Source: Pseudobutyrivibrio sp. (GTDB lineage Bacteria > Bacillota > Clostridia > Lachnospirales > Lachnospiraceae). From it: a stretch of DNA of 64,000 bases. The DNA is taken from contig JAFYYR010000029.1 of NCBI GenBank assembly GCA_017557435.1, positions 1 to 64,000 of the forward strand, read 5' to 3'. Both the position numbers and the translations under genes were made by a program. Position 1 is the first letter of the stretch. Each line of letters starts with the position of its first letter. The notes beneath the pieces are model-generated. The model was not told where the DNA came from and made no database searches. It saw only the letters and a program-made list of their open reading frames with translations. Of this stretch, positions 413 to 21,111 are shown one piece after another.

Positions 413-435
413 GTTGCTGAATTTAATAGTTTCAT

Positions 436-588
436 ATGGATTAGGTGCCCATGGAGAGCATGGGTGAAAAGGGAATCTGGTGAGAATCCAGAGCGAAGCC
501 GTCACTGTGTTAGGGAGTCTGCTTTTATGTCACTGATTAGTCGGGAAGAGAAAGCAGATGTTGATCGAAGTCAGGAGACCTGCCTATT
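436..588 (+). promoter_or_regulatory. Cobalamin (B12) riboswitch aptamer
   Basis: The conserved elements occur in order: GGTGCC near 444, TGAAAAGGGAA near 464-474, GGTGAGAATCC near 479-489, the GCCGTCACTGT core near 498-508, GGGAGTCTGC near 513-522, CACTG near 531, CGGGAAG near 542 and the B12 box with CAGGAGACCTGCC near 572-584. AGGT at the 5' side pairs with ACCT at the 3' side. Adenosylcobalamin or a related corrinoid is expected to bind and lower expression of the downstream cob operon. Confidence 0.95.
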
Positions 589-606
589 CTTTATAATTAA
601 TGATTT

Positions 607-705: not shown

Positions 706-1917
706 ATGAAGAAAAGACTAGCTTTGGGCTTAGCACTTGTTATGAGTGCAAGTATGGCATTTTCAGCTTGTGGCGGACAGAAGGCTGACACAGCAGCAAC
801 TGATGATGCTAAGGAAGAAGTAGTTGAGACAGCTGAGGAGGATGCAGATCAGGTGGCAGCAGATAATTGTGCAGCGCTTATCGACGCTATTTACGTGCAG
901 GAGCGCACAGATGAGACAGATGCTCAGTGTGCAGCTGCAAAAGAGGCATGGGATGGTCTTACAGATGCTCAGAAGGAGCTTGTAGAGGGTGAGAACGCAG
1001 ATCCAGATTACTTTGGTAGAGATACAGGTGATGCTAGCCAGGATGATCCTTTGAATCAGGATGAGATTGGCGAGAATGAGATTCTTGTTGTAAGTTTTGG
1101 TACTTCATTTAATACTAGCCGTGTTCAGGATATCGGTGGTATTGAGAAGGCTATTGCTGAGGCTAATCCAGATTGGTCAGTACGTCGTGCATTTACATCA
1201 CAGATTATCATTAATCATATTCAGGCACGTGACGAGGAGAAGATTGATAACGTAGAGCAGGCTCTTGATAGAGCAGTAGATAATGGTGTTAAGAACCTTG
1301 TTGTTCAGCCTACACACCTTATGCATGGTGCAGAGTACGATGATCTTATCGCAGCTGTAGATGCTTATGCTGATAATTTTGAGTCTGTAAAGATTGCTGA
1401 GCCACTTCTTGGTGAGGTAGGTGCAGATGCTACAGAGATCAACTCAGATAAGGAAGCTGTTGCTAAGGCAGTAGTTGCTGAGGCTGTTGCTACTACAGAT
1501 TACGATGCTTTAGATGCTGCAGCTGAGGATGGTGTTGCATTTGTATTCATGGGACATGGTACAAGCCACACTGCAAAGGTTACATACTCACAGATGCAGA
1601 CACAGATGAATAAGCTTGGCTACGATAATGTATTTATTGGTACAGTAGAGGGTGAGCCAGAGGAGACATCTTGCGAGAATATTATCGCTGCTGTTAAGGA
1701 AGCTGGTTACACAAAGGTTGTAATTCGCCCACTTATGGTTGTTGCTGGTGATCACGCTAACAACGATATGGCTGGTGACGATGATGATTCATGGAAGTCA
1801 ATGTTCACAGCTGATGGAAGCTTTGAATCAGTAGATTGCCAGATTGCAGGCCTTGGTGAGATTGAGGACGTTCAGAAGATTTACGTTGCTCATACAGCTG
1901 ATGCAATTGCAGAATAA
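706..1917 (+). CDS. cbiK: Exported lipoprotein sirohydrochlorin cobaltochelatase, CbiK family
   Basis: CbiK-type chelatases insert cobalt (or iron) into sirohydrochlorin. The ATG at 706 is chosen because GGAGG lies at 690-694 and the resulting 403-residue protein starts with a lipoprotein signal whose lipobox ends at Cys22 (FSAC), so the enzyme should be anchored outside the membrane. Residues about 50-95 form a helical module with DAI and GLTDAQKELV motifs seen in clostridial surface proteins. The chelatase domain begins near 125 (ILVVSFGTSFNTSR) and keeps the metal-site histidines in FMGHGT (about 284) and AGDH (about 350), plus Glu near 315. It is the first gene after the B12 riboswitch. 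An extracytoplasmic chelatase cannot simply supply the cytosolic pathway, so a role in tetrapyrrole or metal capture is possible. Confidence 0.88.
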   Translation: MKKRLALGLALVMSASMAFSACGGQKADTAATDDAKEEVVETAEEDADQVAADNCAALIDAIYVQERTDETDAQCAAAKEAWDGLTDAQKELVEGENADPDYFGRDTGDASQDDPLNQDEIGENEILVVSFGTSFNTSRVQDIGGIEKAIAEANPDWSVRRAFTSQIIINHIQARDEEKIDNVEQALDRAVDNGVKNLVVQPTHLMHGAEYDDLIAAVDAYADNFESVKIAEPLLGEVGADATEINSDKEAVAKAVVAEAVATTDYDALDAAAEDGVAFVFMGHGTSHTAKVTYSQMQTQMNKLGYDNVFIGTVEGEPEETSCENIIAAVKEAGYTKVVIRPLMVVAGDHANNDMAGDDDDSWKSMFTADGSFESVDCQIAGLGEIEDVQKIYVAHTADAIAE

Positions 1918-1932
1918 TTAGATTTAAAATAA

Positions 1933-1956
1933 TGTGCTGGCTTTTATGCCAGCACA
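1933..1956 (+). terminator. Intergenic hairpin between cbiK and the next lipoprotein gene
   Basis: TGTGCTGGC and GCCAGCACA form a perfect 9-bp stem with a 6-base loop. No U tract follows, so it is more likely a weak terminator, processing or mRNA-stabilising element that sets the level of cbiK relative to the transporter genes. Confidence 0.55.
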
Positions 1957-1980
1957 ATTAATAATGGAGATATATCACTA

Positions 1981-2508
1981 ATGAAAAAGAAGTTTTTTAG
2001 TTTAATGCTTGTTGCAGCTATGGCTTTTTCTATGGTGGCTTGCGGCGCTGATAAGGAAGCTGACGCTTCTGCTGAGACAGTGGTAGAAACTGTAGAAGAG
2101 CCAGCAGAAGAGTCTGTAGAAGAGCCTGAGGTTGCTAAACTTGATTTAGAGGATGGAGAGTACACTGTAGATTTTACAACTGACAGTAGCATGTTCCACA
2201 TCAATGAGACTCTTAATAACAAGGCAACTCTTACAGTAGAGGACGGTGTGGGAACTGTTCATATTACTCTTGCAGGAACAGGCATTATCAATCTTTATGT
2301 TGGTCTTGCTGCTGATGCTGAGTCTGATGAGGCTAATTGGCTTAACTATACTGAGGATGAAGTAACATATGATGATGGTATGACTGAGACAGTTTATGGT
2401 TTTGATGTGCCAGTATCAGTATTAAATGAAGAGTTTGATTTGGCCCTTCTTGGAACAAAGGGAACTTGGTATGATCATAAAGTAAAGGTTACATATGAAG
2501 CGAACTAA
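1981..2508 (+). CDS. Small exported lipoprotein with a NEAT-like beta domain (tentative)
   Basis: This 175-residue protein has a lipoprotein signal with lipobox MVAC (Cys21), an acidic linker rich in Glu, Val and Ala (about 22-55), and one beta-rich domain (about 58-175) that starts LEDGEYTVDF and contains FDVPVSVLNEEFDLALLG. The domain resembles the iron-transport-associated/NEAT-like domains found beside tetrapyrrole importers, and resembles the N-terminal part of the next protein. The heme-type Tyr motif is not obvious, so ligand binding is inferred from context. It sits between cbiK and the substrate-binding protein and overlaps the latter by 14 bases, so the two are probably co-translated. 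Confidence 0.75.
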   Translation: MKKKFFSLMLVAAMAFSMVACGADKEADASAETVVETVEEPAEESVEEPEVAKLDLEDGEYTVDFTTDSSMFHINETLNNKATLTVEDGVGTVHITLAGTGIINLYVGLAADAESDEANWLNYTEDEVTYDDGMTETVYGFDVPVSVLNEEFDLALLGTKGTWYDHKVKVTYEAN

Positions 2509-4024
2509 AATTCTTAAAGCTGCAGTGCTGCTGGCTTGCTTAGCAGCCTGCGGCTTTTTTATTAAACAAATATTTTTCAAAACTACAAATCAGGATGAGC
2601 CAGGCATATATTCCTGCTATGTAAATCTTGAAGGTGGAAGTGGCAGGGCTTCTGTAGATTCTCCTGCTCAGGTAATTGTAAAAAAGGATTCGAAGACTGT
2701 TGAGCTTGTATGGTCTAGTCCAAATTATGACTACATGATTGTGGATGGAGAACGCTTCGACAACGAGGCAGCCCCTGGAGATAATTCCGTATTTACCATA
2801 CCGTTTGATAGCTTTGATGAGCCATTTAAAGTGATTGGTGATACTACAGCTATGAGTACACCTCACGAGATTGAGTATACCCTCACGGTTATCAGTCCTG
2901 AGGTTAATAGTGTAGTCGATGCTATTACCACAAATACAGGGGTAGAGGATGCAGGAGAGGTAACTCTTGGAGACCTGAAATTTGTCTCATCTATGGAGCT
3001 TGATTATGCAAAAGAATTTTCAGTTTCTTACTATGAGGATGAGGATAAGAATACATATACTCTTATCACTATAGGTTCGGAGGGCAGCCGCCAATATTTC
3101 ATGATTAGTGAAAATGGCAAGATTCCTTCTGGTGTTTCAGATAATGTAGTGCTACTTAAGGATCTTGATAAGACATATCTTGTATCTACATCTGTAATGG
3201 ATTTAATGGCTGAAATTGATGGTCTTTCTAGTATCAGATTTTCAGGAACTGATGTGGCTGACTGGTATATTCCTGCGGCAAAAGAAAAGATGAATTCAGG
3301 AGATATTTTATATGCAGGCAAATATTCAGCTCCTGACTATGAGCTTTTGATTTCAGAGAAATGTAATTTTGCCATCGAAAATACCATGATTTATCACAAT
3401 CCAGAGGTGAAAGAGAAGCTTGAAAGTCTTGGTATACCTGTTATGGTAGAACGCTCTAGTTATGAGAATGATCCACTGGGACGTTTAGAGTGGATAAAGC
3501 TTTATGGTCTTTTATATGGAAAAGAGCATGAGGCCAATGAATTTTTCGAAGAGCAAAAGGCCAGGGCTAAGGCTATTTCAGATATGGAAAGCACTGGACT
3601 TAAGGTGGCAGTTTTCTCAATTGATTCAAATGGCATGATTTCTATTAGAAAGCCTGGTGACTATATTTCATCTATGATTGAGATGGCAGGCGGAAGCTAC
3701 GTGCCTGCAAATATTGCAGTCTCAGATGATAATGCACTGTCCACTATGAAAATCACAATGGAAGATTTCTATGTTGAAGCAGTTGATGCTGATATATTGA
3801 TTTATAACAGTACAATTGAAGGCGAGATTAAATCTGTGGATGAGCTTATTAAAAAGGCAGAAGTCCTAGGAGATTTTAAGGCTGTAAAATCTGGAAATGT
3901 TTATTGTCTGTCTAAAGGCTATTTTCAACAAAGCTCTGATGTGGCAGAATTTATAGAAGACGTACATATTATTTTGACTGGGGAGAATGGCTCCCTACAA
4001 CACCTTTTCAAACTTAAGGAGTAA
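2495..4024 (+). CDS. Substrate-binding protein of a corrinoid/tetrapyrrole or metal ABC importer, with N-terminal beta domain
   Basis: This 509-residue exported protein has an N-terminal hydrophobic segment with Cys15 and Cys19 in lipobox-like settings (LLAC, LAAC). A beta-rich domain (about 35-140; SPNYDYMIVDG, FTIPFDSFDEPFKVIG) resembles the preceding lipoprotein. The rest (about 160-505) is a FecB/BtuF-like binding protein with the typical helix-linked lobes (SEKCNFAIENTMIYHN, LGIPVMVERSSYENDPLGR, GNVYCLSKG). Two fused binding domains on one component suggest capture and hand-over of a ligand to the FecCD permease immediately downstream. The ligand could be a corrinoid, a metallo-tetrapyrrole or a metal complex; the B12 riboswitch favours the first two. 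Confidence 0.85.
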   Translation: MKRTKILKAAVLLACLAACGFFIKQIFFKTTNQDEPGIYSCYVNLEGGSGRASVDSPAQVIVKKDSKTVELVWSSPNYDYMIVDGERFDNEAAPGDNSVFTIPFDSFDEPFKVIGDTTAMSTPHEIEYTLTVISPEVNSVVDAITTNTGVEDAGEVTLGDLKFVSSMELDYAKEFSVSYYEDEDKNTYTLITIGSEGSRQYFMISENGKIPSGVSDNVVLLKDLDKTYLVSTSVMDLMAEIDGLSSIRFSGTDVADWYIPAAKEKMNSGDILYAGKYSAPDYELLISEKCNFAIENTMIYHNPEVKEKLESLGIPVMVERSSYENDPLGRLEWIKLYGLLYGKEHEANEFFEEQKARAKAISDMESTGLKVAVFSIDSNGMISIRKPGDYISSMIEMAGGSYVPANIAVSDDNALSTMKITMEDFYVEAVDADILIYNSTIEGEIKSVDELIKKAEVLGDFKAVKSGNVYCLSKGYFQQSSDVAEFIEDVHIILTGENGSLQHLFKLKE

Positions 4025-4027
4025 ATA

Positions 4028-5044
4028 GTGGAGAATAAAAGTAGAAAGTATATAACCATAATGGCAGTTATGTTTATCCTTCTTGTGGGACTTTTCTTTT
4101 TGTGTCTTGGCTGGGGAAGTGCAGATATCACTTTAAAAGAAATATTTGGTTCCCTGCTAAATCCTGGAGATGTGCACATGGGAAGAATAGTGGTATCTAT
4201 TAGATTGCCTAGAATTACTGCTGCTATTTTACTTGGTGGAGCCCTTTCGGTTTCAGGCTTTTTACTTCAGATATTCTTTGGAAATCCAATTGCAGGGCCT
4301 TATGTGCTGGGTATTTCATCAGGAGCAAAGCTTATTGTTGCCATTGTTATGGTATTTATGCTAAGCCAGGGTAAATACATAAGTGCTCTTGGCATGGTAG
4401 CAGCAGCCTTTATTGGTTCTTTGATTGCCATGGGAATAGTAATGCTTTTATCTAACAAGGTAAAGAATATGTCTTTGCTTGTTGTTTGTGGTGTTATGAT
4501 TGGATATCTTTGCTCTGCAATTACAGAATTTATTATCGCATTTGCGGATGACACTAATATTGTTAACCTTCACAACTGGTCTCTTGGAAGCTTTTCAGGA
4601 ATCAGTTGGGAAGATGTGGCAATTTCAGCGATTATCGTTATTGTGGCTTTTGTTTTTTCATTTGTGCTCTCAAAGCCTATTGGGGCCTATCAGTTGGGAG
4701 AGAGCTATGCTAGGAATATGGGTGTAAATATTAAGCATCTTAGAATTCTTTTGATTTTACTTTCTAGCATTTTGTCGGCTACTGTTACAGCTTTTGCTGG
4801 GCCTATTTCTTTTGTGGGAATAGCAGTGCCTCATATTTTGAGAACAATTTTGAAAACATCAAAGCCAATTGTTATGATACCTGGTTGTTTTTTAGGGGGC
4901 GCTATAATTACACTTTTATGTGATGGAATTGCAAGAAGCGCATTTTCACCAAGAGAGATTAGTATCAGTGCTGTAACTGCAATTGGTTTGTCCCCTATAG
5001 TTATTTATTTACTTATAAAACGTAAAGAGGTTTCCCATGGTTAG
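4028..5044 (+). CDS. FecCD/BtuC-family ABC transporter permease
   Basis: A 338-residue integral membrane protein with about nine or ten hydrophobic segments and FecCD signatures: RLPRITAAILLGGALSVSG near 55-75, NPIAGPYVLGISSGA near 90, and FVGIAVPHILR near 265. Translation starts at GTG 4028, with AAGGAG six bases upstream. It lies directly between the binding protein and the ATPase and overlaps the ATPase gene by 8 bases. The family moves iron-siderophore, heme or cobalamin inwards; the substrate here is inferred from the cobalamin operon. Confidence 0.92.
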   Translation: MENKSRKYITIMAVMFILLVGLFFLCLGWGSADITLKEIFGSLLNPGDVHMGRIVVSIRLPRITAAILLGGALSVSGFLLQIFFGNPIAGPYVLGISSGAKLIVAIVMVFMLSQGKYISALGMVAAAFIGSLIAMGIVMLLSNKVKNMSLLVVCGVMIGYLCSAITEFIIAFADDTNIVNLHNWSLGSFSGISWEDVAISAIIVIVAFVFSFVLSKPIGAYQLGESYARNMGVNIKHLRILLILLSSILSATVTAFAGPISFVGIAVPHILRTILKTSKPIVMIPGCFLGGAIITLLCDGIARSAFSPREISISAVTAIGLSPIVIYLLIKRKEVSHG

Positions 5045-5834
5045 TAGCATAGATTTAGAATCCCTAGTAGTAGGCTATAAGAGTCCGGTAATTGAAAATG
5101 TTAATCTAACTGTGAATTCTGGAGAAATAGTTGCCCTTATAGGTCCAAATGGCGCCGGTAAATCCACTGTTTTAAAGACAATTACTAGACAGATTCAAAA
5201 GATGGATGGCAAGATTGTCATTATGGGTCAGGATGAGGATGGTATTTCAGAAGACAATCTGGCTAAAAAGCTTTCCATGGTTACCACAGAAAGGATTCAC
5301 CCAGAGCTTATGAGCTGCTTTGAGGTGGTGTCCACAGGTAGATATCCATATACCGGTCGACTTGGAATCTTATCAAAAGAAGACATTAAGATAGTTAAAA
5401 AAGCAATTGAGATGGTTGGAGCTAAGGATGTGGCTAACAAGGATTTTTCCAAGGTAAGTGACGGCCAGAGACAGCGAGTAATGCTGGCTCGAGCAATTTG
5501 TCAGGAGCCAGAGATTTTAATTCTGGATGAGCCTACATCATTTCTTGATATTCAGTTTAAGATAGACATTTTATCTGTAATAAAAAATCTTGCTAAGGAG
5601 AAAAATATTGCTGTATTAATGTCTATTCATGAGCTTGAATTTGTTCCTGCTGTTGCAGACAAAGTGGTGGCAGTGTCAGATGGAAAAGTATTTAAAATTG
5701 GCACACCAGATGAGATCTTAACAGGAGAAAATCTGGCATCTTTGTATCACATGTCGCTGGATGAAAGCAATGTACTTGCAACAGGTTTGATTGATTATTC
5801 TAATTCATTAAAGAGAGTATTATGTCAAAAGTAA
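5037..5834 (+). CDS. ABC transporter ATPase, BtuD/FecE type
   Basis: The 265-residue ATPase has Walker A GPNGAGKST near 37-45, a degenerate signature VSDGQRQR near 140, and Walker B ILILDEPTSFLD near 160, followed by the H-loop SIHELEF near 198. Signature Ser is kept although the usual SGGQ reads SDGQ, as is common in this subfamily. It overlaps the permease by 8 bases and cbiP by 13 bases, so importer and biosynthesis genes are translationally linked. Confidence 0.93.
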   Translation: MVSSIDLESLVVGYKSPVIENVNLTVNSGEIVALIGPNGAGKSTVLKTITRQIQKMDGKIVIMGQDEDGISEDNLAKKLSMVTTERIHPELMSCFEVVSTGRYPYTGRLGILSKEDIKIVKKAIEMVGAKDVANKDFSKVSDGQRQRVMLARAICQEPEILILDEPTSFLDIQFKIDILSVIKNLAKEKNIAVLMSIHELEFVPAVADKVVAVSDGKVFKIGTPDEILTGENLASLYHMSLDESNVLATGLIDYSNSLKRVLCQK

Positions 5835-7348
5835 TTATGATTCAAGGCACCATGTCAAATGTAGGCAAAAGCCTGCTTGTTGGTGGACTTTGTAGAGTTT
5901 TAAAACAGGATGGTTTAAAGGTAGCACCATTTAAATCACAAAATATGGCCCTCAATTCTTTTGTCACAAAGGATGGGTTGGAACTTGGCAGAGCTCAGGC
6001 TATGCAGGCTGAGTGTGCCGGGGTGGAGCCTAGCGTCTATATGAATCCTATTTTGCTTAAGCCTACCAATGATATTGGCAGTCAGGTGATTGTAAATGGT
6101 GAGGCCATAGGCAATATGTCTGCAAGGGATTATTTTGCCTATAAGAAAAAGCTGATTCCTGATATTCTTCACGCGTACCACAAATTAGAAGAGTGGGCAG
6201 ATGTGATTGTAATCGAGGGAGCTGGTTCTCCAGCGGAGATTAATCTTAAATCTGATGACATAGTAAATATGGGCATGGCAAAACTTGTAGATGCACCTGT
6301 TCTTTTAGTTGGAGATATTGATAGAGGCGGAGTTTTTGCTCAGCTATTAGGCACACTTGAGCTTCTTGAGGCTGATGAGAGGGATAGAGTAAAGGGACTT
6401 ATAATTAACAAGTTTCGCGGTGATAAGAGTCTTCTTGATTCAGGAATAGAGATGCTTGAGGAGAGAGGTCATGTTCCTGTTGTGGGAACTATTCCATATG
6501 CCCATCTTATGATTGATGATGAGGATAGCCTAAGCGAGAGACTTGGCAATGAATTTGATTATGGCGATAACGTAAATACGGTAGAGATTGCTGTAGTTAG
6601 ATTGCCTAGAATTTCTAATTTTACAGATGTGGCTCCATTTGAGAGCATTCCAGGGGTACGAGTTTCTTTTGTTTCAAACCCTAGAGAGCTTGAAGGGGCA
6701 GATATGGTGATTATCCCTGGCAGCAAAAATACCATCGGTGATATGAATTGGCTTAGGACATCAGGCTTTGAGCCTGCTATAAAAAGATTTGCAATGAATA
6801 AGCCAGTGGTAGGAATCTGCGGTGGATTCCAGATGATGGGAAATGAGATTTTTGATCCAGAGGGTATAGAAAATGAGGATGTGGACAGCATCCATGGACT
6901 TGATTTATTCCCTATAGTTACAAGCCTTCAGCCTATGAAACATCGCAGTCAGACAGAGGATTGCTTTGACGATTTAACAGGAGTATTTTCTAGCCTTTCA
7001 AATGAAGAGTTTGTGGGATATGAGATTCACAACGGAAATACAGAGCTTTCTGCAGAAGATGACAGAGATTATGATGGCCTTGTTGTAGAAAGAGATGAGG
7101 AGGGGCAGATTATTCTTTTGCAAAAGGATAATCTCTTTGGAACCTATGTCCATGGAATATTTGACCATGAGGATATTGCATTTAAGCTGGTTTCAAAGCT
7201 GGCTGAGAATAAGGGCGTAAGTATAGGAGATGCTAGTTTTGACTATCAGGCCTTTAAGGAGGGAGAATATGATAAGCTGGCAGATATCATAAGAGAGAAC
7301 TTGGATATGTCACTTATTAGAAGGCTCCTTGATTTGCCTACAGTATAG
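5822..7348 (+). CDS. cbiP: Cobyric acid synthase CbiP (CobQ)
   Basis: CbiP amidates the b, d, e and g carboxylates of adenosylcobyrinate a,c-diamide using glutamine and ATP. The 508-residue length is normal. The N-terminal dethiobiotin-synthetase-like ATPase opens with MIQGTMSNVGKSLLVGG. The C-terminal type I glutamine amidotransferase carries VVGICGGFQMMG with the nucleophilic Cys near 334, and the HGIFDHE histidine region near 437. Its ATG overlaps the end of the ABC ATPase gene. It acts in the cytosol, late in the pathway, although it is first among the biosynthetic genes here. Confidence 0.97.
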   Translation: MSKVIMIQGTMSNVGKSLLVGGLCRVLKQDGLKVAPFKSQNMALNSFVTKDGLELGRAQAMQAECAGVEPSVYMNPILLKPTNDIGSQVIVNGEAIGNMSARDYFAYKKKLIPDILHAYHKLEEWADVIVIEGAGSPAEINLKSDDIVNMGMAKLVDAPVLLVGDIDRGGVFAQLLGTLELLEADERDRVKGLIINKFRGDKSLLDSGIEMLEERGHVPVVGTIPYAHLMIDDEDSLSERLGNEFDYGDNVNTVEIAVVRLPRISNFTDVAPFESIPGVRVSFVSNPRELEGADMVIIPGSKNTIGDMNWLRTSGFEPAIKRFAMNKPVVGICGGFQMMGNEIFDPEGIENEDVDSIHGLDLFPIVTSLQPMKHRSQTEDCFDDLTGVFSSLSNEEFVGYEIHNGNTELSAEDDRDYDGLVVERDEEGQIILLQKDNLFGTYVHGIFDHEDIAFKLVSKLAENKGVSIGDASFDYQAFKEGEYDKLADIIRENLDMSLIRRLLDLPTV

Positions 7349-7369
7349 TATTAATCAGACGAGGATTAT

Positions 7370-8002
7370 ATGAAAATAGATTTTATTCTACCATCAGAAA
7401 TTGAAAAGCGAAGCTTTGAGATTATTTCAGAAGAGCTTGATAAAATGGGAATTTCTATCCCAGCGGAAGAGGAGCCGATCACAAAGAGAGTTATCCATAC
7501 AAGTGCTGATTTTGATTATGCTTCCACAATGAGTTATTCAAAAGGTTCCATAGCAAGAGCTAAGGAGCTTATTAAAAATGGTGCTCATATTGTGACAGAT
7601 ACTAATATGGCATTATCTGGAATTAATAAAAAAAGGCTGGCAGAGTATGGCGGTCAGGTTCACTGCTTTATGGCAGATGAGGATGTGGCAAAGGAAGCTA
7701 AAGAACGACAGGTTACTAGAGCTACAGTTTCCATGGAAAGAGCAGCAGGTCTCAATGTGCCGGTTATATTTGCCATAGGTAATGCTCCTACAGCACTTAT
7801 ATGCCTTCATGAGATGATGGAGGCAGGGCGATTTACGCCGGAGTTTGTTATTGGAGTTCCTGTTGGATTTGTAAATGTGGTGGCAGCAAAGAAACTGTTT
7901 TTAAACTCTGATGTGCCTTATATTATAAATAAGGGTAGAAAAGGCGGCAGCAACATAGCTGCGGCTATCGTAAATGCGATACTTTATAATATTGATAAAT
8001 AG
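7370..8002 (+). CDS. cbiC: Cobalt-precorrin-8 methylmutase CbiC
   Basis: CbiC moves the C11 methyl group to C12, giving cobyrinate. The 210-residue protein has the diagnostic catalytic histidine motif RVIHTSADFDY near 45-55, the DTNMALSGI loop near 80, and the GFVNVVAAK segment near 163. GAGG sits five bases before the ATG. The gene follows cbiP by 21 bases and is followed by cbiD after 8 bases. An alternative name is CobH in the aerobic pathway, but the neighbours fix it as the anaerobic enzyme. Confidence 0.96.
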   Translation: MKIDFILPSEIEKRSFEIISEELDKMGISIPAEEEPITKRVIHTSADFDYASTMSYSKGSIARAKELIKNGAHIVTDTNMALSGINKKRLAEYGGQVHCFMADEDVAKEAKERQVTRATVSMERAAGLNVPVIFAIGNAPTALICLHEMMEAGRFTPEFVIGVPVGFVNVVAAKKLFLNSDVPYIINKGRKGGSNIAAAIVNAILYNIDK

Positions 8003-8010
8003 GAGTTTTC

Positions 8011-9129
8011 ATGAGAAAAGGTTTTACAACCGGAAGCTGTGCAGCTGCGGCGGCCAAGGCAGCAGCTTTCATGCTTTTAACAGGTCAAGAAAAACTTAAT
8101 ATAGAAATTGAGACTCCTGCAGGTGTGATGTTTGCAGCTGAGATAGTGGATGTCATAAGAAATGAAAGACAGGTGACATGTGCTGTTATTAAGGATGGGG
8201 GAGATGACCCGGATGTTACAACAGGTGCACATGTAACTGCCACTGTTTCCATAGCAAGAGATACTATAGAGCAATCATTTGATGAGCCTGATGTCTTAAT
8301 AGATGGAGGAGTAGGAGTTGGTAGAGTTACTTTACCAGGTCTTGATCAGCCAGTTGGCAATGCAGCTATTAACAGTGTACCACGTGAGATGATTGCCAAG
8401 GAAGTTGTTGAAGTCTGCAAGCTTCTTGATTTCAATGGAATTCTCAATGTGGAGATTTCTGTGCCAGAGGGAATAGAGCTTGCAAACAAGACATTTAACC
8501 CACGTCTTGGCATAACAGATGGTATCTCAATACTTGGTACCACAGGAATAGTAGAGCCTATGAGTAATAAGGCTATTATTGATACTATAAATGTAGAACT
8601 TTCTCAAAAGAAGGCCCTGGGATTTAAATACGCAGCTGTAACTCCAGGCAATTACGGTCTTAAATTTATGAAAGACACCTTCGACTATGATTTGGATGCC
8701 AGTGTAAAATGCTCCAACTTCATAGGCGAGACAGTTGATAAAGTAATAGAGCTTGGATTTGAGGGTATGATTATAACTGGCCATATAGGAAAGCTTATAA
8801 AGGTGGCCGGAGGAATTATGAATACCCATTCTCACGAGGCAGATGCCAGAATGGAGATTTTAGCATCCCAGGTCATTAGAGCTGGAGGGGATGCGGTCCT
8901 TGCAAGAAAAGTACTTGATTGCCTTAATACTGAAGAGGCACTTAATCTCATAAAAGGGGCTAATCTACTTGAGGCCACAATGGATATAGTCCTTGAAAAG
9001 ATTCTGTTCTATCTGAATTTTAGAGCAGGAAATAAAATCAATATTCAGTGTATTTTATATTCCAATGAATTTGGCATATTAGCACAGTCTCATGGGGCAT
9101 TAAATATGTTAAAATGTTTACATGAGTAG
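8011..9129 (+). CDS. cbiD: Cobalt-precorrin-5B C1-methyltransferase CbiD
   Basis: CbiD methylates C1 of cobalt-precorrin-5B with S-adenosylmethionine, in the anaerobic pathway only. The 372-residue protein begins with the family hallmark MRKGFTTGSCAAAAAKAA. It also carries DGGDDPDVTTGAH near 62 and the glycine-rich GGVGVGRVTLPGLDQPVGNAAIN region near 98-120, with the NTHSHEADAR segment near 270. CbiD has no similarity to the other methyltransferases, so the assignment rests on these motifs and on position. Confidence 0.96.
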   Translation: MRKGFTTGSCAAAAAKAAAFMLLTGQEKLNIEIETPAGVMFAAEIVDVIRNERQVTCAVIKDGGDDPDVTTGAHVTATVSIARDTIEQSFDEPDVLIDGGVGVGRVTLPGLDQPVGNAAINSVPREMIAKEVVEVCKLLDFNGILNVEISVPEGIELANKTFNPRLGITDGISILGTTGIVEPMSNKAIIDTINVELSQKKALGFKYAAVTPGNYGLKFMKDTFDYDLDASVKCSNFIGETVDKVIELGFEGMIITGHIGKLIKVAGGIMNTHSHEADARMEILASQVIRAGGDAVLARKVLDCLNTEEALNLIKGANLLEATMDIVLEKILFYLNFRAGNKINIQCILYSNEFGILAQSHGALNMLKCLHE

Positions 9130-9155
9130 TTGATTATAAAATTGGGGTGGGGGTT

Positions 9156-10988
9156 ATGAGCTTTAAGTCTAGATTCAGGAAATTTAAGCTACATCTATAT
9201 CTAAATATAATTCTTGGAATTGGATGTTTTATTTTCCTTTTGAATGCCTTTATATACAGGCGTAGTTTCCTATGGCTTTTTGGTGGGCTTTTTGCGGCAT
9301 GTCTTATTGCACTTATTATTTCTGAAATCCAAAGAAGGAAAAGTGCAGTAGGGTTACTTGAGAATGTAGACGAGCAGCTTATACCTTTTATACGACTTTT
9401 TGACAGATATAATAGAAGACTTATCAACTGGAGCCTTGTGGCTTTTTGGTGGGTGTTTTCATTTAGCTTTTCTCTTATTTCCATTGGCATTAACTCAAAG
9501 CCCTTTGAGTTTTTGGAAAAGATAAATATTAATCTGATAGTCTTTGAAGTAATAGCTTTTTTCATTATCAAGAATTACACATTGGTAGGGTGGTTTTCTA
9601 AGAACCACAATTTTGAAAATGCACAGGCCCTTAAGGGGCTTCATAAGAGAGTGATGATTCTCTCTTTGATTTACTGGGTCATTGCAAGTGTCATTTACTA
9701 TTACTTTGAGGAAGTCTTTGTTATAGACAGTGCGCCGTTTTTTAGCGGACTATACATTTTCATAGCACTTGTCTTTAACCTCTTTAAGTTAAACCAGTTT
9801 ACCCATTCTAAGAAAAAATATAACAGGCTGGTTATTGCAATGATTTTAATTGTTGCAATAGGTGTAGGTGGCTACAGTTTCTTATGCAGAGATATTTGGC
9901 TTACTCAGCCATATATAAATCATGTGCCAAATATTTACGATGGGCACAGTGAGATTTCTTATGATGAGGACACTGGTGTTTATACCATCACAAAGGAAAG
10001 TGGAGATTTTAAAATCCTTCAGCTGACAGATATTCATCTAGGAGGAAGTTTTCTATCCTACGACAAGGATTTAAAGGCATTCGACACTATATTCCAGCTT
10101 TTGGATGAGACCCGGCCGGACCTTGTAATAGTAACTGGCGATTTGGTTTTCCCTATAGGGTATGCATCATTTTCATTTAATAACACTGCGCCAGTCCAGC
10201 AGTTTGCAGCCTTTATGAGAAATACGGGAATACCTTGGGCATTTACTTACGGCAATCACGATACAGAAAGCTATGCCGCATCATCGAAAAGTGATTTGAA
10301 TGAGTTGTACAAATCCCTATCCTGGGATACAAGCAAGACTCTTATGTACCCATATGTGCAGCCAGATATTACAGGAAGAAACAATCAGCTTATAGAGCTA
10401 AGAAATCAAGATGGCACAATGGCACAGGCAATTTTTTTAATAGATTCCAATGCCTATACAGGTGAGGGGTTCAGCAGTGAATATGATTACATTCATGATG
10501 ACCAGGTACAGTGGTACAAAGATCAGGTTCTGAAAATAGAAGATGAAGAAGGAAAGATAGTACCATCTATGATATTTATCCATATTCCTCTTCAGGAGTA
10601 TGCTACAGCGGCTGATTTATATAATGCAGGAAGTAATGAAGTGACTTACTATTTTGGCGCTAATAAAGAATCCAAAGTAGGTAAGGTGTCATGCTCTGAG
10701 TATCCTAGTAAATTATTCGATACAGCAAAGGAGCTTAAAAGCACTAATGCAATTTTTTGCGGACATGACCACTATAACAATATGTCCCTTGAATATCAGG
10801 GGATTAGGCTTACCTATGGCATGAGTATTGATTATCTTGCCATGTCAGGTATAGCAAGAGATATTGAACAAAGAGGTGCTACTCTTATAACCATCCATGA
10901 TGATGGTACTTCAGATGTGGAGCAGGTACCTTTTGGAAATAGAAATTTTACTTTTTTTGATGACTTTAAAAGGATGGGACAGAAATAA
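9156..10988 (+). CDS. Membrane-anchored calcineurin-like metallophosphoesterase inside the cob operon
   Basis: About 610 residues starting at ATG 9156, with a G-rich ribosome binding site just upstream (a GTG at 9147 is also in frame). Residues 1-250 hold several hydrophobic segments. From about 285 there is a metallophosphoesterase domain facing outwards by prediction: ILQLTDIHLGG, LVIVTGDLVF, FTYGNHDTE and IFCGHDHYNN supply the metal-binding Asp, His and Asn residues. Such enzymes hydrolyse phosphomono- or diesters. It is not a known cobalamin enzyme, yet it lies within the operon, 26 bases after cbiD, and its stop overlaps the start of cbiF by one base (TAATG). Its substrate is unknown; a nucleotide-loop or lipid-linked phosphate role would be speculation. 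Confidence 0.85.
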   Translation: MSFKSRFRKFKLHLYLNIILGIGCFIFLLNAFIYRRSFLWLFGGLFAACLIALIISEIQRRKSAVGLLENVDEQLIPFIRLFDRYNRRLINWSLVAFWWVFSFSFSLISIGINSKPFEFLEKININLIVFEVIAFFIIKNYTLVGWFSKNHNFENAQALKGLHKRVMILSLIYWVIASVIYYYFEEVFVIDSAPFFSGLYIFIALVFNLFKLNQFTHSKKKYNRLVIAMILIVAIGVGGYSFLCRDIWLTQPYINHVPNIYDGHSEISYDEDTGVYTITKESGDFKILQLTDIHLGGSFLSYDKDLKAFDTIFQLLDETRPDLVIVTGDLVFPIGYASFSFNNTAPVQQFAAFMRNTGIPWAFTYGNHDTESYAASSKSDLNELYKSLSWDTSKTLMYPYVQPDITGRNNQLIELRNQDGTMAQAIFLIDSNAYTGEGFSSEYDYIHDDQVQWYKDQVLKIEDEEGKIVPSMIFIHIPLQEYATAADLYNAGSNEVTYYFGANKESKVGKVSCSEYPSKLFDTAKELKSTNAIFCGHDHYNNMSLEYQGIRLTYGMSIDYLAMSGIARDIEQRGATLITIHDDGTSDVEQVPFGNRNFTFFDDFKRMGQK

Positions 10989-11749
10989 TGGTTTATTTTG
11001 TAGGAGCAGGCTGCGGGGCAGCAGATTTGATTACAATTAGAGGAATGAGAATATTAACTAGAGCTGATACTATTATTTACACCGGCTCCTTAGTTAACGA
11101 CGAACTTTTGGGATATGCTAAGGATTCTTGTTTTTGTTATGACAGCTCCCGTATGACTCTTGATGAGGTTATGGAAGTTATGATAAGGGATGCTGAAAAA
11201 GGTGAAGAGGTAGTTAGACTTCATACTGGTGACCCTAGTCTTTATGGAGCTATCCAGGAGCAGATGCGTATATTAGATCAGCGCGGAATACATTATGAGA
11301 CATGTCCAGGAGTCAGCGCTTGCTTTGGTGCAGCAGCTAGCTTGAATTTGGAGTTTACACTTCCTGATATTAGCCAGTCTCTTATTATTACTAGGATGGC
11401 GGGACGTACACCGGTACCAGAAAAAGAGTCCATAGAGAGTTTCGCAAAGCATGGAGCTACAATGGCTATCTATTTAAGCTCGGGCATGTTACAGGAGCTT
11501 CAAGAGAGACTTATAGCTGGTGGATATTCTCAAAGTACAAAGGCAGCAATTGTGTATAGAGCAACCTGGCCACAGGAGAAAAAGTTTATATGTACAGTAG
11601 GCACTTTGGCTAAGACAGCTGCTGAAAATGGTATTGATAGATTCGCAGTTATATTGGTGGGGGATGTAATAGGAAAAGCGGATTATTCTTTATCGAAGCT
11701 ATATGATCCGACTTTTGAAACGGGATACAGAAAGAGTTATGAAAACTAA
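10988..11749 (+). CDS. cbiF: Cobalt-precorrin-4 C11-methyltransferase CbiF
   Basis: CbiF methylates C11 of cobalt-precorrin-4. The 253-residue protein has the tetrapyrrole methylase fold: N-terminal VYFVGAGCGAADLITIRG, LHTGDPSLYGA near 78, CPGVSACFGAAA near 105, and the CbiF-typical Q(S)LIITRMAGRTPVP near 130-145 and IYLSSGM near 160. Start and stop overlap with both neighbours, indicating tight coupling. CobM is the name used in the aerobic pathway. Confidence 0.96.
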   Translation: MVYFVGAGCGAADLITIRGMRILTRADTIIYTGSLVNDELLGYAKDSCFCYDSSRMTLDEVMEVMIRDAEKGEEVVRLHTGDPSLYGAIQEQMRILDQRGIHYETCPGVSACFGAAASLNLEFTLPDISQSLIITRMAGRTPVPEKESIESFAKHGATMAIYLSSGMLQELQERLIAGGYSQSTKAAIVYRATWPQEKKFICTVGTLAKTAAENGIDRFAVILVGDVIGKADYSLSKLYDPTFETGYRKSYEN

Positions 11750-12668
11750 GAAAATTATTAGAGTTGCATATTTTACAGATAATGGAAAGGAGCTGGCCTT
11801 AAGGCTATTTGATGGCTGGGATGAGGCTATCCCTGAATACAGAAATGAAGAGCTTTCTCTAAATGATTGGGTTGAGGATTCCTTCAAAAATCATTTGCCT
11901 ATTTTATTTATTGGAGCAGTTGGAATAGCAGTTAGAGCTATAGCTCCATTTGTTAATAATAAACTTAAGGATTCTGCAGTAATAGTAACAGATGAGCTTG
12001 GACTTAATGTTATTCCGATTTTGTCAGGCCATTTTGGTGGAGCCAATGACTGGGCGAGAGTTATTGCAGAAAAGATAGATTCCAATGCTGTTATTACAAC
12101 TGCCACAGATATTAATAACGTATTTGCGGTAGATGTTTTCGCCAGAGAAAACGGTTTTAAAATCAAGAACAAGGAAATGATTAAAGAGGTCTCTAGAAAG
12201 GTACTTAATGGGGAAAAGCTTAATGCCATAGAGACTCAGGATTATCTTGATATTGATGGACTTTGGCTGGTGCCAAAGAGACTTACTCTTGGAATTGGCT
12301 GTAAAAAGGGCAAGACCTTCAAGGAGATTTTTCAGTTTGTAACTAGCATATATGATGAGGATTATCTATACGACAATCTCTATGCTATTTCGTCTATTGA
12401 TGTTAAATCATCAGAAATTGGTCTTATTAAGCTTGCCCAGTACTTTGGAGTTCCTTTTGTTACATATTCTGCTGATGAGCTTTCAGCGGTAGAGGGGGAC
12501 TTTAATGAATCTGATTTTGTAAAAGAAAATGTAGGCGTAGGAAATGTTTGTGAGAGGGCAGCCCTCCTTGCAGCAGGAGAAGAATCCACAATTATTAAGG
12601 CCAAGGAAGCCTTTGATGGCATGACTCTTGCAGCAGCAAAACGAGAAAAATTAGTTATAGAATGGTAG
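11739..12668 (+). CDS. cbiG: Cobalt-precorrin-5A hydrolase CbiG
   Basis: CbiG opens the delta-lactone ring and removes C20 as acetaldehyde. Start ATG 11739 overlaps the end of cbiF by 11 bases; the open frame extends further upstream, but that extension lies inside cbiF. The 309-residue protein shows the N-terminal domain with RVAYFTDNGKELA, the conserved PILFIGAVGIAVRAIAP, LSGHFGGANDWAR near 100, and a C-terminal LGIGCKKGK motif near 187 with EGDFNESDFVKENVGVGNVCERAAL. It has the usual three-part architecture. Confidence 0.95.
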   Translation: MKTKKIIRVAYFTDNGKELALRLFDGWDEAIPEYRNEELSLNDWVEDSFKNHLPILFIGAVGIAVRAIAPFVNNKLKDSAVIVTDELGLNVIPILSGHFGGANDWARVIAEKIDSNAVITTATDINNVFAVDVFARENGFKIKNKEMIKEVSRKVLNGEKLNAIETQDYLDIDGLWLVPKRLTLGIGCKKGKTFKEIFQFVTSIYDEDYLYDNLYAISSIDVKSSEIGLIKLAQYFGVPFVTYSADELSAVEGDFNESDFVKENVGVGNVCERAALLAAGEESTIIKAKEAFDGMTLAAAKREKLVIEW

Positions 12669-13429
12669 AAAAAATGGCAGGAAAGATATACATAGTTGGC
12701 ATGGGGCCAGGATTTAAATCAATGATGACAGAGGATGCTTTTAAGGCAATGGAGCAGGCTGATGTTATCGTTGGATATACAGTATATATTGATTTGGTGA
12801 AGGAACATTTCCCTGATAAGGATTTTTTCACCACCCCAATGAAAAAGGAAATAGAGCGATGCAGAGCATGCTTTGACTTTGCTCTTGAAGGCAAGACAGT
12901 TGCATTTATCTGCAGTGGTGATGCTGGAATATACGGTATGGCTGCGCCTATGTATGAGCTTTTGCCTGAATACATGGAGGCTAATTCTGATTTAACCGAG
13001 GATAATCTTATAGTGATTCCTGGTGTGACTTCAGCTATTTCTGGAGCGGCAGTTTTAGGTGCACCTATCAATCATGATTTTTGCCTAATAAGCCTTAGCG
13101 ATTTGCTTACACCATGGGAAGTGATTGAAAAGAGATTAAAGGCTGCTGTTATGGGAGATTTTTCAATTGTTTTATACAATCCATCCAGCAAAAAAAGACA
13201 TGATTATCTGGAGAAGGCTTGCAATATTTTGATTGAAGCAGGTGCCAGTGGAGACAGAGCCTGTGGCTATGTGGAGAACATTGGAAGAGTAGGGGAGAAT
13301 TCTCACGTATGTACCCTTTCACAGCTTAAAAATACTCAGGTTAATATGTTTACAACTGTGTTTATTGGAAACTCAAATACAAGGATAATCTCAGATAAGC
13401 TTGTAACACCTAGAGGATATAAAATATGA
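12662..13429 (+). CDS. cbiH: Cobalt-factor III / precorrin-3B C17-methyltransferase CbiH
   Basis: CbiH methylates C17 and drives ring contraction of cobalt-factor III. The protein starts at ATG 12662, overlapping cbiG by 7 bases; a second ATG at 12674 (MAGKIYIVGMGPG) is equally plausible. Diagnostic motifs are FICSGDAGIYGMAAPMYEL near 80, IPGVTSAISGAAVLGAPINHDF near 115-140, SLSDLLTPWEVIEKR and VLYNPSSKKR near 172. Length of about 255 residues is standard for the single-domain form (no CbiG fusion). Confidence 0.96.
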   Translation: MVEKMAGKIYIVGMGPGFKSMMTEDAFKAMEQADVIVGYTVYIDLVKEHFPDKDFFTTPMKKEIERCRACFDFALEGKTVAFICSGDAGIYGMAAPMYELLPEYMEANSDLTEDNLIVIPGVTSAISGAAVLGAPINHDFCLISLSDLLTPWEVIEKRLKAAVMGDFSIVLYNPSSKKRHDYLEKACNILIEAGASGDRACGYVENIGRVGENSHVCTLSQLKNTQVNMFTTVFIGNSNTRIISDKLVTPRGYKI

Positions 13430-15501
13430 ACAAGGTAATTATATTTGGTGGAACTACAGAAGGAAGAAAGTTGGCCCAGACTCTGGCGAAAAAGGAAGTT
13501 TTTTGCGTGTACTGTGTGGCTACAGACTACGGCAAGGACCCTATAGAGGAGTCTGATTATATTGAGGTTAGGACAGGACGCTTGGATTCTACAGCTATGG
13601 TTGAGATGTTTGAATGTGAGATGCCTGACGGAATTATAGATGCCACTCATCCTTTTGCTACAGCAGTTAAGGCTGAGATTGAAGATGCACTTTTTAGATA
13701 TAAAACAGTTCCATTTTATCGCTTGGCAAGAGAAGAAGATAAGGTGGACGTCAGTGGCTGTACCTTTTTTGATTCAGCACTTGATGTGGCTAGAGCCCTT
13801 GAGAACACCACAGGCAAAGTGTTTCTTACTACAGGAAGCAAGGAACTGCCTGTCTTTTGCGCAAGCGAGTCTTTAAGAGAGAGAATAATAGCTCGTGTTA
13901 TTCCCAATATCGAAAGTCTTGAAATCTGCAAGGAGCAGGGACTAAAGGGCAATCAGATTATTGCTATGCAGGGACCATTTTCAAAGGCAATGAATGTGGC
14001 CTTTTTAAAGGAAGCTGGTGCTAGTATTCTTGTTTTGAAGGAGGGGGGCCAGGCTTCGGGTGAGGCAGAGCGTATAGAGGCTGCAAATGCCCTTGGAATA
14101 AAGTGTTTTGTTATTAAAAGACCACAGGAAAAGGTTGAAGGGCTCACATTTGAGCAGGTGAGAGACAGGCTATTTAATTTATTTAGAATAGATAGTTCTA
14201 ATGAGGAAGAGGAGTCACATGATATTTCTGCTGTGACACCTGACAATAATCTAGAGAATAAAATCCATGTGATACTTGCAGGCTATGGAATGGGACCAGC
14301 TAGCCAGACTAGAGAGGTGCTTGAGGCCATAGAGGAGGCTGACTATCTTTTTGGCGCCCCAAGAATGCTTGTTGGATTTGAGTCTAAGGCTAAAAAGTAT
14401 CCACATTATCTGGCGGAGGATATAGTGCCTCTTCTTCAGCAGATTGCTCTTGATTTAAAATATGGCACTAAAAAAGTAGTTATACTTATGTCCGGGGATA
14501 CGGGATTTTACAGCGGAGCGGCTAAGCTTGGCAAGGCATTAGATGAGCTTAATTTCTGCAAGACTAAAATTCTACCTGGCATTTCATCAATAAGTGCAAT
14601 TGCAGCCAGGGCCAAGGAAAACTGGCAGGATGGTGTGATTCTTAGTACCCATGGAATTAAGGAATCTACATGGAAGCAGCAGGTATTACAGGGGGCTGTT
14701 CATAATAGAAAGACTTTTGTTATTACCTCTGGTGCCAAGGATGTGCGCCTTATAGGCGAGATGCTTGTGGCTGCTGAAAAAGAGTATGATATTAGATTTA
14801 AAATATTTGTTGCCACTAATCTCTATACAGATGAGAGGTTAGAGTGGCTGACAGCAGATAAGTGTTCTAGCTTTAATAGAGATGGTCTTGTTACCATTTT
14901 GATTAAAAATGATAATGTGATTCCAAAGAAGTTATCGCCTTCCCTTTTGGATTCTCAGTTCATCCGGGATAAGGTTCCAATGTCAAAGGAAGAAATCAGA
15001 GCTCTTTCTGTATGCAAATTACAGCCTACTAAAAATTCTGTGATTTACGATATTGGAAGCGGAAGTGGCTCAGTGGCAGTGGAGCTTGCTCTTTTAGATT
15101 CCTCTGTAAAGGTATACGCAGTGGAGATAAAGCCTGAGGCCTGCAGTCTTATTAAGAAAAATATCGAGAAATTTAAGGCTTCAAATATAGAGCTGATTGA
15201 GGGGGCTGCCCCAGATGTAATAAGAGACCTACCAGCGCCAACACATGTATTTATAGGAGGCAGTGGAGGAAGGCTTGAGGATATTTTATCTGAGCTTAAA
15301 AGTAGAAATTCGCATATACGGATTGTAATTAATGCAGTTACATTAGAGACAATCAGCGAGATAAATAGTGTATTAAAGAAATTTGAGATTGATGATGCGG
15401 ATATTGTCCAGGTGACTGTAAGCAAGTCTAAAAAGGCTGGTGAATACTCACTTATGCAGGGACAAAATCCAGTATATATCGTTTCTTTTGGGGTTAATTA
15501 A
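13426..15501 (+). CDS. cbiJET: Trifunctional fusion CbiJ-CbiE-CbiT (precorrin-6A reductase and precorrin-6B/7 methyltransferases)
   Basis: Three pathway enzymes are joined in 691 residues. CbiJ (about 1-255) reduces cobalt-precorrin-6A: VIIFGGTTEGRKLAQ, DATHPFA near 70, and TTGSKELP near 135. CbiE (about 282-480) methylates C5: AGYGMGPASQTR, MSGDTGFYSG near 357 and LPGISSISAIAA. CbiT (about 500-690) methylates C15 and decarboxylates: VIYDIGSGSGSVAVELAL at about 537 is the S-adenosylmethionine site, and FIGGSGG lies near 608. CbiET fusions are common, whereas an added N-terminal CbiJ is less so. The linker at 262-280 is acidic and low complexity. The gene overlaps cbiH by 4 bases (ATGA) and abuts cbiA. 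Confidence 0.94.
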   Translation: MNKVIIFGGTTEGRKLAQTLAKKEVFCVYCVATDYGKDPIEESDYIEVRTGRLDSTAMVEMFECEMPDGIIDATHPFATAVKAEIEDALFRYKTVPFYRLAREEDKVDVSGCTFFDSALDVARALENTTGKVFLTTGSKELPVFCASESLRERIIARVIPNIESLEICKEQGLKGNQIIAMQGPFSKAMNVAFLKEAGASILVLKEGGQASGEAERIEAANALGIKCFVIKRPQEKVEGLTFEQVRDRLFNLFRIDSSNEEEESHDISAVTPDNNLENKIHVILAGYGMGPASQTREVLEAIEEADYLFGAPRMLVGFESKAKKYPHYLAEDIVPLLQQIALDLKYGTKKVVILMSGDTGFYSGAAKLGKALDELNFCKTKILPGISSISAIAARAKENWQDGVILSTHGIKESTWKQQVLQGAVHNRKTFVITSGAKDVRLIGEMLVAAEKEYDIRFKIFVATNLYTDERLEWLTADKCSSFNRDGLVTILIKNDNVIPKKLSPSLLDSQFIRDKVPMSKEEIRALSVCKLQPTKNSVIYDIGSGSGSVAVELALLDSSVKVYAVEIKPEACSLIKKNIEKFKASNIELIEGAAPDVIRDLPAPTHVFIGGSGGRLEDILSELKSRNSHIRIVINAVTLETISEINSVLKKFEIDDADIVQVTVSKSKKAGEYSLMQGQNPVYIVSFGVN

Positions 15502-17914: not shown

Positions 17915-17916
17915 CT

Positions 17917-19259: not shown

Positions 19260-19262
19260 ATT

Positions 19263-21098: not shown

Positions 21099-21111
21099 AA
21101 GGTGTGTTGAC

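Follow-up and report, generated by a model that had tools for sequence, protein, structure and literature searches.

Roper et al. reportedly found in 2000 that Porphyromonas gingivalis has 'a functional corrin pathway', and the protein IhtB of the same bacterium (from IhtABCDE) we take to be one and the same as FetB. Lobo et al. are said to have described in 2008 two functional CbiKs in Desulfovibrio vulgaris, in which a cytosolic CbiK exists beside a periplasmic one, CbiKP, presumably the protein of the structure 2xvx. The Iht system of P. gingivalis consists of a CbiK-like lipoprotein, a binding protein, a permease and an ATPase and is presumed to draw iron from heme, according to the accessible part of PMC10913741, and the portion available of a 2026 review places manganese protoporphyrin at the surface of this bacterium in a FetB-dependent manner (PMC13402209). 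In Desulfovibrio, a B12 element controls both cbiK-cbiL and btuCDF, and the δ-proteobacteria with a CbiK-type enzyme lack the known cobalt transporters, as stated in the available text of PMC545781. In the accessible sections of Shelton et al. (PMC6461909), tetrapyrrole precursor salvagers, which hold corrin-ring genes without the early tetrapyrrole steps, are described as primarily Firmicutes, as host-associated in 78% of those with ecosystem data and as having a verified dependence on 5-aminolevulinate, and P. gingivalis is described as lacking the steps to precorrin-2. HmuS of Bacteroides is a heme de-chelatase that removes the tetrapyrrole metal in gut anaerobes (PMC12583661, available part). 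Here, a further arrangement is considered, which stands at the head of a cobalamin operon in a 64,000-nucleotide stretch of Pseudobutyrivibrio sp. DNA (the window; contig JAFYYR010000029.1 of assembly GCA_017557435.1, family Lachnospiraceae). Behind a B12 riboswitch lie genes for a CbiK with a predicted export signal, a lipoprotein with a NEAT-like domain, a binding protein and a FecCD-type importer. With moderate confidence, we read them as a riboswitch-controlled module for the acquisition of a cobalt-tetrapyrrole, in which the surface CbiK loads the cobalt, and the NEAT-like and binding proteins together with the FecCD importer bring in the ring upstream of CbiD.

The CbiK of the window matched PF06180 with 248.8 bits (cut-off 26.2) and scored 190 bits with the NCBIfam equivalog model, below its cut-off of 400. 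Its best sequence match in the PDB was FetB (E 3e-39), and 2xvx matched at E 8e-31. The initial annotation, made from the letters and open reading frames, had pointed to a lipobox and to conserved metal-site histidines in this protein, and both observations stood: H284, H350 and E315 align with the two His and the Glu found in Salmonella CbiK, 2xvx and FetB, the glutamate being presumably a metal-site residue. The catalytic histidines, which in Salmonella CbiK are residues 145 and 207 (accessible part of PMC7689651), are conserved throughout the exported-class CbiKs described below.

A PF06180 profile search of 250 Lachnospiraceae genomes, representing 249 genera, found CbiK in 146 of them and gave 184 listed matches, of which 146 were fetched and 38 were not. 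By their score against the window CbiK, the fetched proteins fell into class E1 (at least 380 bits), class E2 (about 230-300 bits) and a cytosolic class (at most 211 bits). The unfetched matches were classed as cytosolic by their coordinates, 30 having open frames of at most 280 residues, too short for a signal and a linker, and the other 8 being longer (fusions, fragments or 281-295 residues); they account for 16 of the 56 genomes with a cytosolic CbiK only and for the cytosolic match in 12 of the 30 genomes with both types. Fragment rows in G063, G130 and G205 (already counted), an unlisted third match of G138 and identical copies from overlapping loci were left out, and the CbiKs of G019 and G062 have no signal sequence. 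On a quick tree of 145 CbiKs, all of E1 fell on one side of a branch (SH-aLRT 93), and E2 adjoined E1 with three cytosolic rows inside it.

The lipobox followed these classes closely. By a pattern rule of our own, as distinct from a trained predictor, it was called from sequence in the window CbiK, in 62 of 66 E1 genes (the others being one plain signal, two cut by contig ends and one without a signal) and in 15 of 19 E2 genes (two plain signals, one cut, one none), and in none of 58 cytosolic-class genes taken as a control; apparent signals in the cytosolic-class L032 and L034 sit inside fusion proteins. The view that the exported-class CbiK is an extracytoplasmic lipoprotein is supported by this predicted distribution. 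Between the signal and the CbiK domain, the E1 linker (about 870-1080 in the window) holds a conserved segment ending in DYFGRDTG, present in 59 of 68 E1 entries, which were not made unique; the window copy of the segment had no Pfam match at E 1.

The two kinds of CbiK also keep different company. A NEAT-like beta domain, either fused to CbiK or encoded on the same strand no more than 8 kb away, accompanied 82 of 86 exported-class genes versus 1 of 57 cytosolic ones, and the figures for FecCD were 56 of 86 versus 1 of 57, so the proposed co-occurrence of a signal-bearing CbiK, beta domains and FecCD genes was found across the family. A class III binding protein was nearby in 61 of 86 versus 0 of 57. 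Conversely, CbiM was near none of the 86 exported-class genes versus 19 of the 57 cytosolic ones (14 of the 28 longer cytosolic loci), and a CbiO-like ATPase was fused to 8 of the 57 cytosolic CbiKs and to none of the 86 exported ones. These comparisons are affected by unequal flanks, loci of at least 6 kb making up 74 of the 86 exported and 28 of the 57 cytosolic cases; among the latter 28, a beta domain occurred once and FecCD not at all. Four exported-class genes had no beta domain, and two of these (L123 and L185) also lack a signal. In 80 named loci found with an E1 profile, a set chosen by CbiK similarity and in part shortened by contig ends, there were 78 with a NEAT-like domain (32 fused to CbiK), 67 with a binding protein and 64 with FecCD. 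A cobalamin riboswitch lay upstream of the exported CbiK in all 14 of these 80 loci that were scanned and in 7 of 7 scanned E2 loci, which with the window makes 22 of 22. The differing neighbours tie one kind of CbiK to cobalt import and the other to a ring-binding and ring-importing set.

In the window itself, profile and riboswitch matches confirmed the riboswitch-led set of a lipid-anchored CbiK, a NEAT lipoprotein, a binding protein with a beta domain, a FecCD permease and an ATPase. As for the claim that two similar NEAT-like beta domains are present, the lipoprotein was found to have the NEAT fold, and the similarity of the second domain is less firm, as hhalign gave a weak match between the two and the fold search of the two-domain binding protein was taken up by its periplasmic binding protein (PBP) part. 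The lipoprotein scored 19.9 bits with Pfam NEAT, short of the cut-off of 32.8, and 18 of 46 relatives matched at E 0.01 or better (best 1.6e-5). Heme-binding NEAT domains hold the heme iron with a Tyr-x-x-x-Tyr motif. It was found in none of the 46 domains in the last 40 residues, and Trp-Tyr-Asp-His was present in all 46. The permease reached 209 bits with the BtuC equivalog (cut-off 334), and the ATPase 186 bits with the corrinoid ATPase equivalog (cut-off 537), its second-best model.

The gene content of the genomes bears on where the ring enters and how it obtains its metal. The host genome (G000; 2.84 Mb, 29 contigs, 96.2% complete) has the exported CbiK as its single CbiK, no separate CbiX and no CbiM match at E 0.001. 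The steps from porphobilinogen to sirohydrochlorin are present, with CobA/HemD, HemC and SirC (210 residues) on contig 11, and CbiL lies on contig 27; the two stretches of this genome that were read showed no HemA, HemL or HemB, no search having been aimed at them. Across the family, CbiD was present in 82 of 83 genomes with an exported CbiK versus 147 of 250 overall, the sole exception (G063) being 89% complete, which agrees with the earlier proposal that the module feeds the cobalamin pathway rather than performing plain B12 uptake. By their CbiK, the 147 CbiD genomes divide into 52 exported-only, 56 cytosolic-only, 30 with both and 9 with none. Cobalt-type CbiM, defined by our length rule of an open frame of 250-320 residues, which overlooks one or more cytosolic-only genomes (such as G021, whose 367-residue CbiM lies near its CbiK), was found in 0 of 52 exported-only, 34 of 56 cytosolic-only and 7 of 30 both-type genomes (Fisher 1.6e-13 for the first two). 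Long-form CbiM was found in 9 of 52, 13 of 56 and 6 of 30, respectively. With no length rule, any clear CbiM occurred in 9 of 52 exported-only versus 39 of 56 cytosolic-only genomes, and in 13 of 52 versus 40 of 56 when the matches set aside as weaker than E 1e-50 were included (a split match of 1e-25 in G209, the others 3e-7 or weaker).

CbiL (TIGR01467, E 1e-22) was found in 30 of 52 exported-only, 56 of 56 cytosolic-only and 28 of 30 both-type genomes. CobA, which is needed for sirohydrochlorin, and SirC were sought in 80 genomes, namely the complete exported-only set of 52 and, of the 56 cytosolic-only ones, 28, with a curated cut-off for CobA and at least 79 bits with PF13241 for SirC. 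Among the exported-only genomes, CobA was present in 15 (absent in 37) and SirC in 16, versus 26 of 28 cytosolic-only genomes for each; CobA, SirC and CbiL occurred together in 11 (the host genome included), CobA and SirC in 4, CbiL alone in 19, SirC alone in 1 and none of the three in 17. The differences persisted among genomes at least 95% complete, where the exported-only and cytosolic-only counts were 10/33 versus 25/27 for CobA, 0/33 versus 19/27 for cobalt-type CbiM and 20/33 versus 27/27 for CbiL. A quick tree of these 52 CbiKs requires at least 11 changes of presence for CobA and 13 for CbiL, which indicates that such differences arise repeatedly among them; being exported does not in itself amount to 52 independent events. 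No separate CbiX over the cut-off was found in the 80 genomes.

Gene content, signal sequences, fusions, the riboswitch, the conserved active site, the NEAT fold and co-occurrence are thus the observations from which we infer the substrate, metal, direction and order of hand-over of the module. In the proposed sequence of events, the lipid-anchored CbiK would insert Co2+, outside the membrane, into a metal-free ring of the sirohydrochlorin type (factor II, perhaps factor III); the NEAT-fold domain, whether a neighbour of CbiK or part of the same protein, would receive the ring and hand it on to the binding protein with its two domains; and import through the FecCD permease with its ATPase would place it in the cytosol, where CbiL or CbiH, ahead of CbiD, would take it into the anaerobic pathway. 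Cobalt would then cross the membrane within the ring, which would make both CbiM and a cytosolic cobaltochelatase dispensable. Import of a metal-free ring would call for a cytosolic cobaltochelatase and no CbiK or CbiX of that kind was found, which argues for metal addition before import, and import of a finished corrinoid would make CbiD unneeded, so that its retention argues for entry ahead of CbiD. The enzymes from CbiD onward are retained, whereas ring synthesis, metal insertion in the cytosol and the customary cobalt importer are frequently absent together, and a putative surface chelatase is there with a set for binding and importing the ring. The simplest account that gene content suggests is therefore that the ring gains cobalt at the surface and enters ahead of CbiD, the metal change being, as we infer from the same evidence, cobalt insertion. 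The initial annotation had already proposed the capture of exogenous tetrapyrroles and a change of their metal outside the cell; across the family, this is likely the best account, with cobalt insertion the likely change. The exogenous origin is supported for the 37 exported-only genomes without CobA, in which the ring must come from outside; in the host genome, in which CobA/HemD, HemC, SirC and CbiL are present, the ring may also be the cell's own. Judging from these sequences, gut and rumen bacteria of the Lachnospiraceae seem to load cobalt into a B12 precursor outside the cell and then to import it.

Several findings weigh against this reading. Although CbiD is present, CbiL is missing from 22 of the 52 exported-only genomes, which would require the ring imported there to be cobalt-factor III or later, already methylated at C20. 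Both kinds of CbiK coexist in 30 genomes. The nine exported-only genomes with a clear long-form CbiM/NikM might import cobalt, weak CbiM matches alone occur in four more (one a fragment at a contig end), and the comparison of cobalt import covers CbiM/NikM as the only transporter type. In the host genome, SirC or another cytosolic enzyme may metalate sirohydrochlorin; a sulfite reductase, which by our reading should need siroheme, suggests that some cytosolic enzyme may do so. An ABC-2 exporter such as would be expected for export of the cell's own ring sits beside cbiL in the host genome, yet only 1 of the 34 exported-only genomes tested carried its permease. E1 forms a single branch in the tree of CbiKs, so its genomes are not independent events, and the ligand is not revealed by either the NEAT fold or the permease class.

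Ordinary corrinoid uptake, with a BtuFCD-type importer for cobalamin or cobinamide and auxiliary corrinoid binding at the surface by CbiK and the NEAT-like protein, would be in keeping with the importer, the permease being best matched by the BtuC model and the ATPase second best by the corrinoid ATPase model, both below cut-off, and uptake genes are also commonly under B12 riboswitches. We consider it unlikely, since the exported CbiK tracks cbiD, which plain salvage does not need, keeps its active-site residues and, in the exported-only genomes, is accompanied by neither a cytosolic CbiK or CbiX nor a cobalt-type CbiM.

A variant of the module reading, in which the cell sends out its own sirohydrochlorin through an ABC-2 transporter, loads it outside and takes it back, draws on the host genome, which has CobA/HemD, SirC, CbiL, only an exported CbiK and no CbiM match. 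There, at 9074-12493 of L100 (contig C27), cbiL overlaps the gene for an ABC-2 ATPase, behind which come the genes for its permease and for a membrane-anchored protein that has two beta domains; similar clusters in L063 and L094 hold the exported CbiK itself, which suggests export. However, among 80 genomes tested, 14 carried the ABC-2 permease, and 13 of these carriers have both chelatases (1 of the 34 with an exported CbiK only, 13 of the 30 with both types and none of the 16 with a cytosolic CbiK only), and in G154 and G230 the permease stands beside a cytosolic-class CbiK. As a general rule, export and re-import was rejected on this distribution, and we hold the variant to be quite unlikely; the ABC-2 cargo may be another compound where both chelatases exist.

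Least probable of all is a surface de-chelatase or metal exchange acting on heme or siroheme, like IhtB/FetB, to supply the cell with iron or with a ring free of metal: the PDB search did give FetB as its best match, Iht is built of the same four parts (PMC10913741, accessible part) and, from titles, NEAT domains bind heme, but the setting is a B12 riboswitch and a cbi operon, metal-free import would leave the exported-only genomes in need of a cytosolic cobaltochelatase, of which no CbiK or CbiX was found, and the heme motif is missing from the last 40 residues of all 46 domains. Two cytosolic enzymes were also tried as the real cobalt inserter and rejected. In the 80 genomes, every PF01903 match over the cut-off coincided with a CbiK gene, and a handful of hits in frames of some 350 residues, together with a single hit in a frame of 1000 residues, were all below it, which disposes of CbiX. 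A SirC like Met8p/CysG, as a general inserter of cobalt, is missing in 36 of 52 exported-only genomes; in the host genome, it could still serve.

Features of the operon in the window (positions on the 64,000-nucleotide stretch)
Feature	Position	Strand	Details
Cobalamin riboswitch aptamer (RF00174)	426..601	+	105.3 bits versus gathering threshold 31.5
Exported CbiK, predicted lipid-anchored class II chelatase	706..1917	+	Lipobox Cys22; linker with conserved helical segment; CbiK domain residues 126-401
Lipoprotein with NEAT-fold domain (residues about 50-175)	1981..2508	+	Invariant Trp-Tyr-Asp-His; no Tyr-x-x-x-Tyr near end
Class III substrate-binding protein (residues 231-474)	2495..4024	+	N-terminal all-beta domain; membrane anchor or lipobox (LAAC)
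FecCD/BtuC-type ABC permease	4028..5044	+	PF01032 E 1e-77; best NCBIfam model BtuC, below cut-off
ABC ATPase, FecE/BtuD type	5037..5834	+	PF00005 E 5e-33; NCBIfam models below cut-off
Operon remainder, first part	5822..22155	+	cbiP, cbiC, cbiD, metallophosphoesterase, cbiF, cbiG, cbiH
Operon remainder, second part	5822..22155	+	cbiJ-E-T fusion, cbiA, cobT, cobU, cobS, phosphatase, cbiB, cobD-like aminotransferase

In the operon remainder, cbiP, cbiC, cbiG, cbiH and cbiA were named from sequence reading and gene order only, and no cbiL was seen there. The metallophosphoesterase between cbiD and cbiF (9147-10985) is a membrane protein of 613 residues with an orthologue in the same position in Pseudobutyrivibrio L234; the nearest named relatives at the locus are also Pseudobutyrivibrio, with 83-91% CbiK identity. 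Elsewhere in the host genome, at 3478-7336 of L328 (contig C11), sirC stands beside a second binding protein, two FecCD-type permeases and an ATPase, next to an AraC-type regulator, and this second importer reads as one for iron or a siderophore. Fusion proteins of CbiK were found as well. Proteins of about 950-1100 residues in L198, L264, L293 and L305 scored like two CbiK domains plus a NEAT-like domain, with two CbiK matches within one frame in L198, and cytosolic CbiK was fused to a CbiO-like ATPase in L184, L191, L032 and L095-L099, to CbiL in L113 and to CbiH in L034, and by coordinates lies in one frame with CbiD in G186. The exported-CbiK module with its riboswitch also occurs outside the family, in Spirochaetaceae and Treponema metagenome-assembled genomes (MAGs), Faecalibacterium and Gemmiger (L285, L310, L241, L306 and L301).

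If the proposed module is real, cobalt insertion, the first committed step of anaerobic B12 synthesis, moves out of the cytosol, and the ring becomes an exchangeable good among gut bacteria. This would offer a mechanism for species that keep the corrin pathway without genes for the starting ring or for cobalt import, the former being a puzzle raised for P. gingivalis in 2000 by Roper et al. and widened by Shelton et al. A broader and more tentative idea, which we put forward as a possibility somewhat short of probable, is that rings of the sirohydrochlorin type, passed among species or sent out by the same cell, act outside the cell as carriers of cobalt ('cobaltophore'), loaded by a surface chelatase and taken in by a NEAT-FecCD relay in place of cobalt import and cytosolic metalation. 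There may also be a practical consequence, as cbiK is scored as a producer gene under a CbiK/CbiX rule in the accessible part of PMC6593275, and surveys that take it to mark production in the cytosol may list some salvagers among the B12 producers.

In the open-access literature that was searched, no title described a CbiK that is exported and accompanied by NEAT-like domains within a B12 operon, and each of the known systems resembles the module in part. Iht/Fet likewise combines a CbiK-like lipoprotein, a binding protein, a permease and an ATPase in one locus, but has a TonB receptor (IhtA) and a heme/iron reading, whereas the module heads a cobalamin operon in which no gene reads as a TonB receptor (no search with a protein-family model of such a receptor was made). 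By analogy with FetB, the surface chelatase activity of a CbiK relative would have a precedent, with another metal and ring. HmuS, which is CobN-like, shares the chemistry of metal-tetrapyrroles in gut anaerobes and differs as a membrane enzyme of another chelatase class whose substrate is heme. The NEAT heme relays (Isd, Hbp2, IsdX), which deliver to a FecCD-type permease, share the NEAT fold and the class III binding protein, but the domain of the module lies below the Pfam cut-off, has the invariant Trp-Tyr-Asp-His, lacks Tyr-x-x-x-Tyr and is joined to a chelatase and B12 genes. CbiKP of Desulfovibrio, for which we know of no NEAT-like partner, resembles the window CbiK in sequence, as the 2xvx match indicates, and the Desulfovibrio arrangement may follow the same logic in a Gram-negative. 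For Iht, the available text of PMC10913741 mentions no B12 riboswitch, NEAT-like domain or cob operon. Finally, the absence of CobA from 37 of the 52 exported-only genomes would fit the description of the precursor salvagers, and the host genome has HemC, HemD/CobA and SirC; and while the accessible part of PMC6461909 names no transporter for ring precursors, the exported-CbiK module is proposed to provide one, in the form of a surface chelatase joined to an importer.

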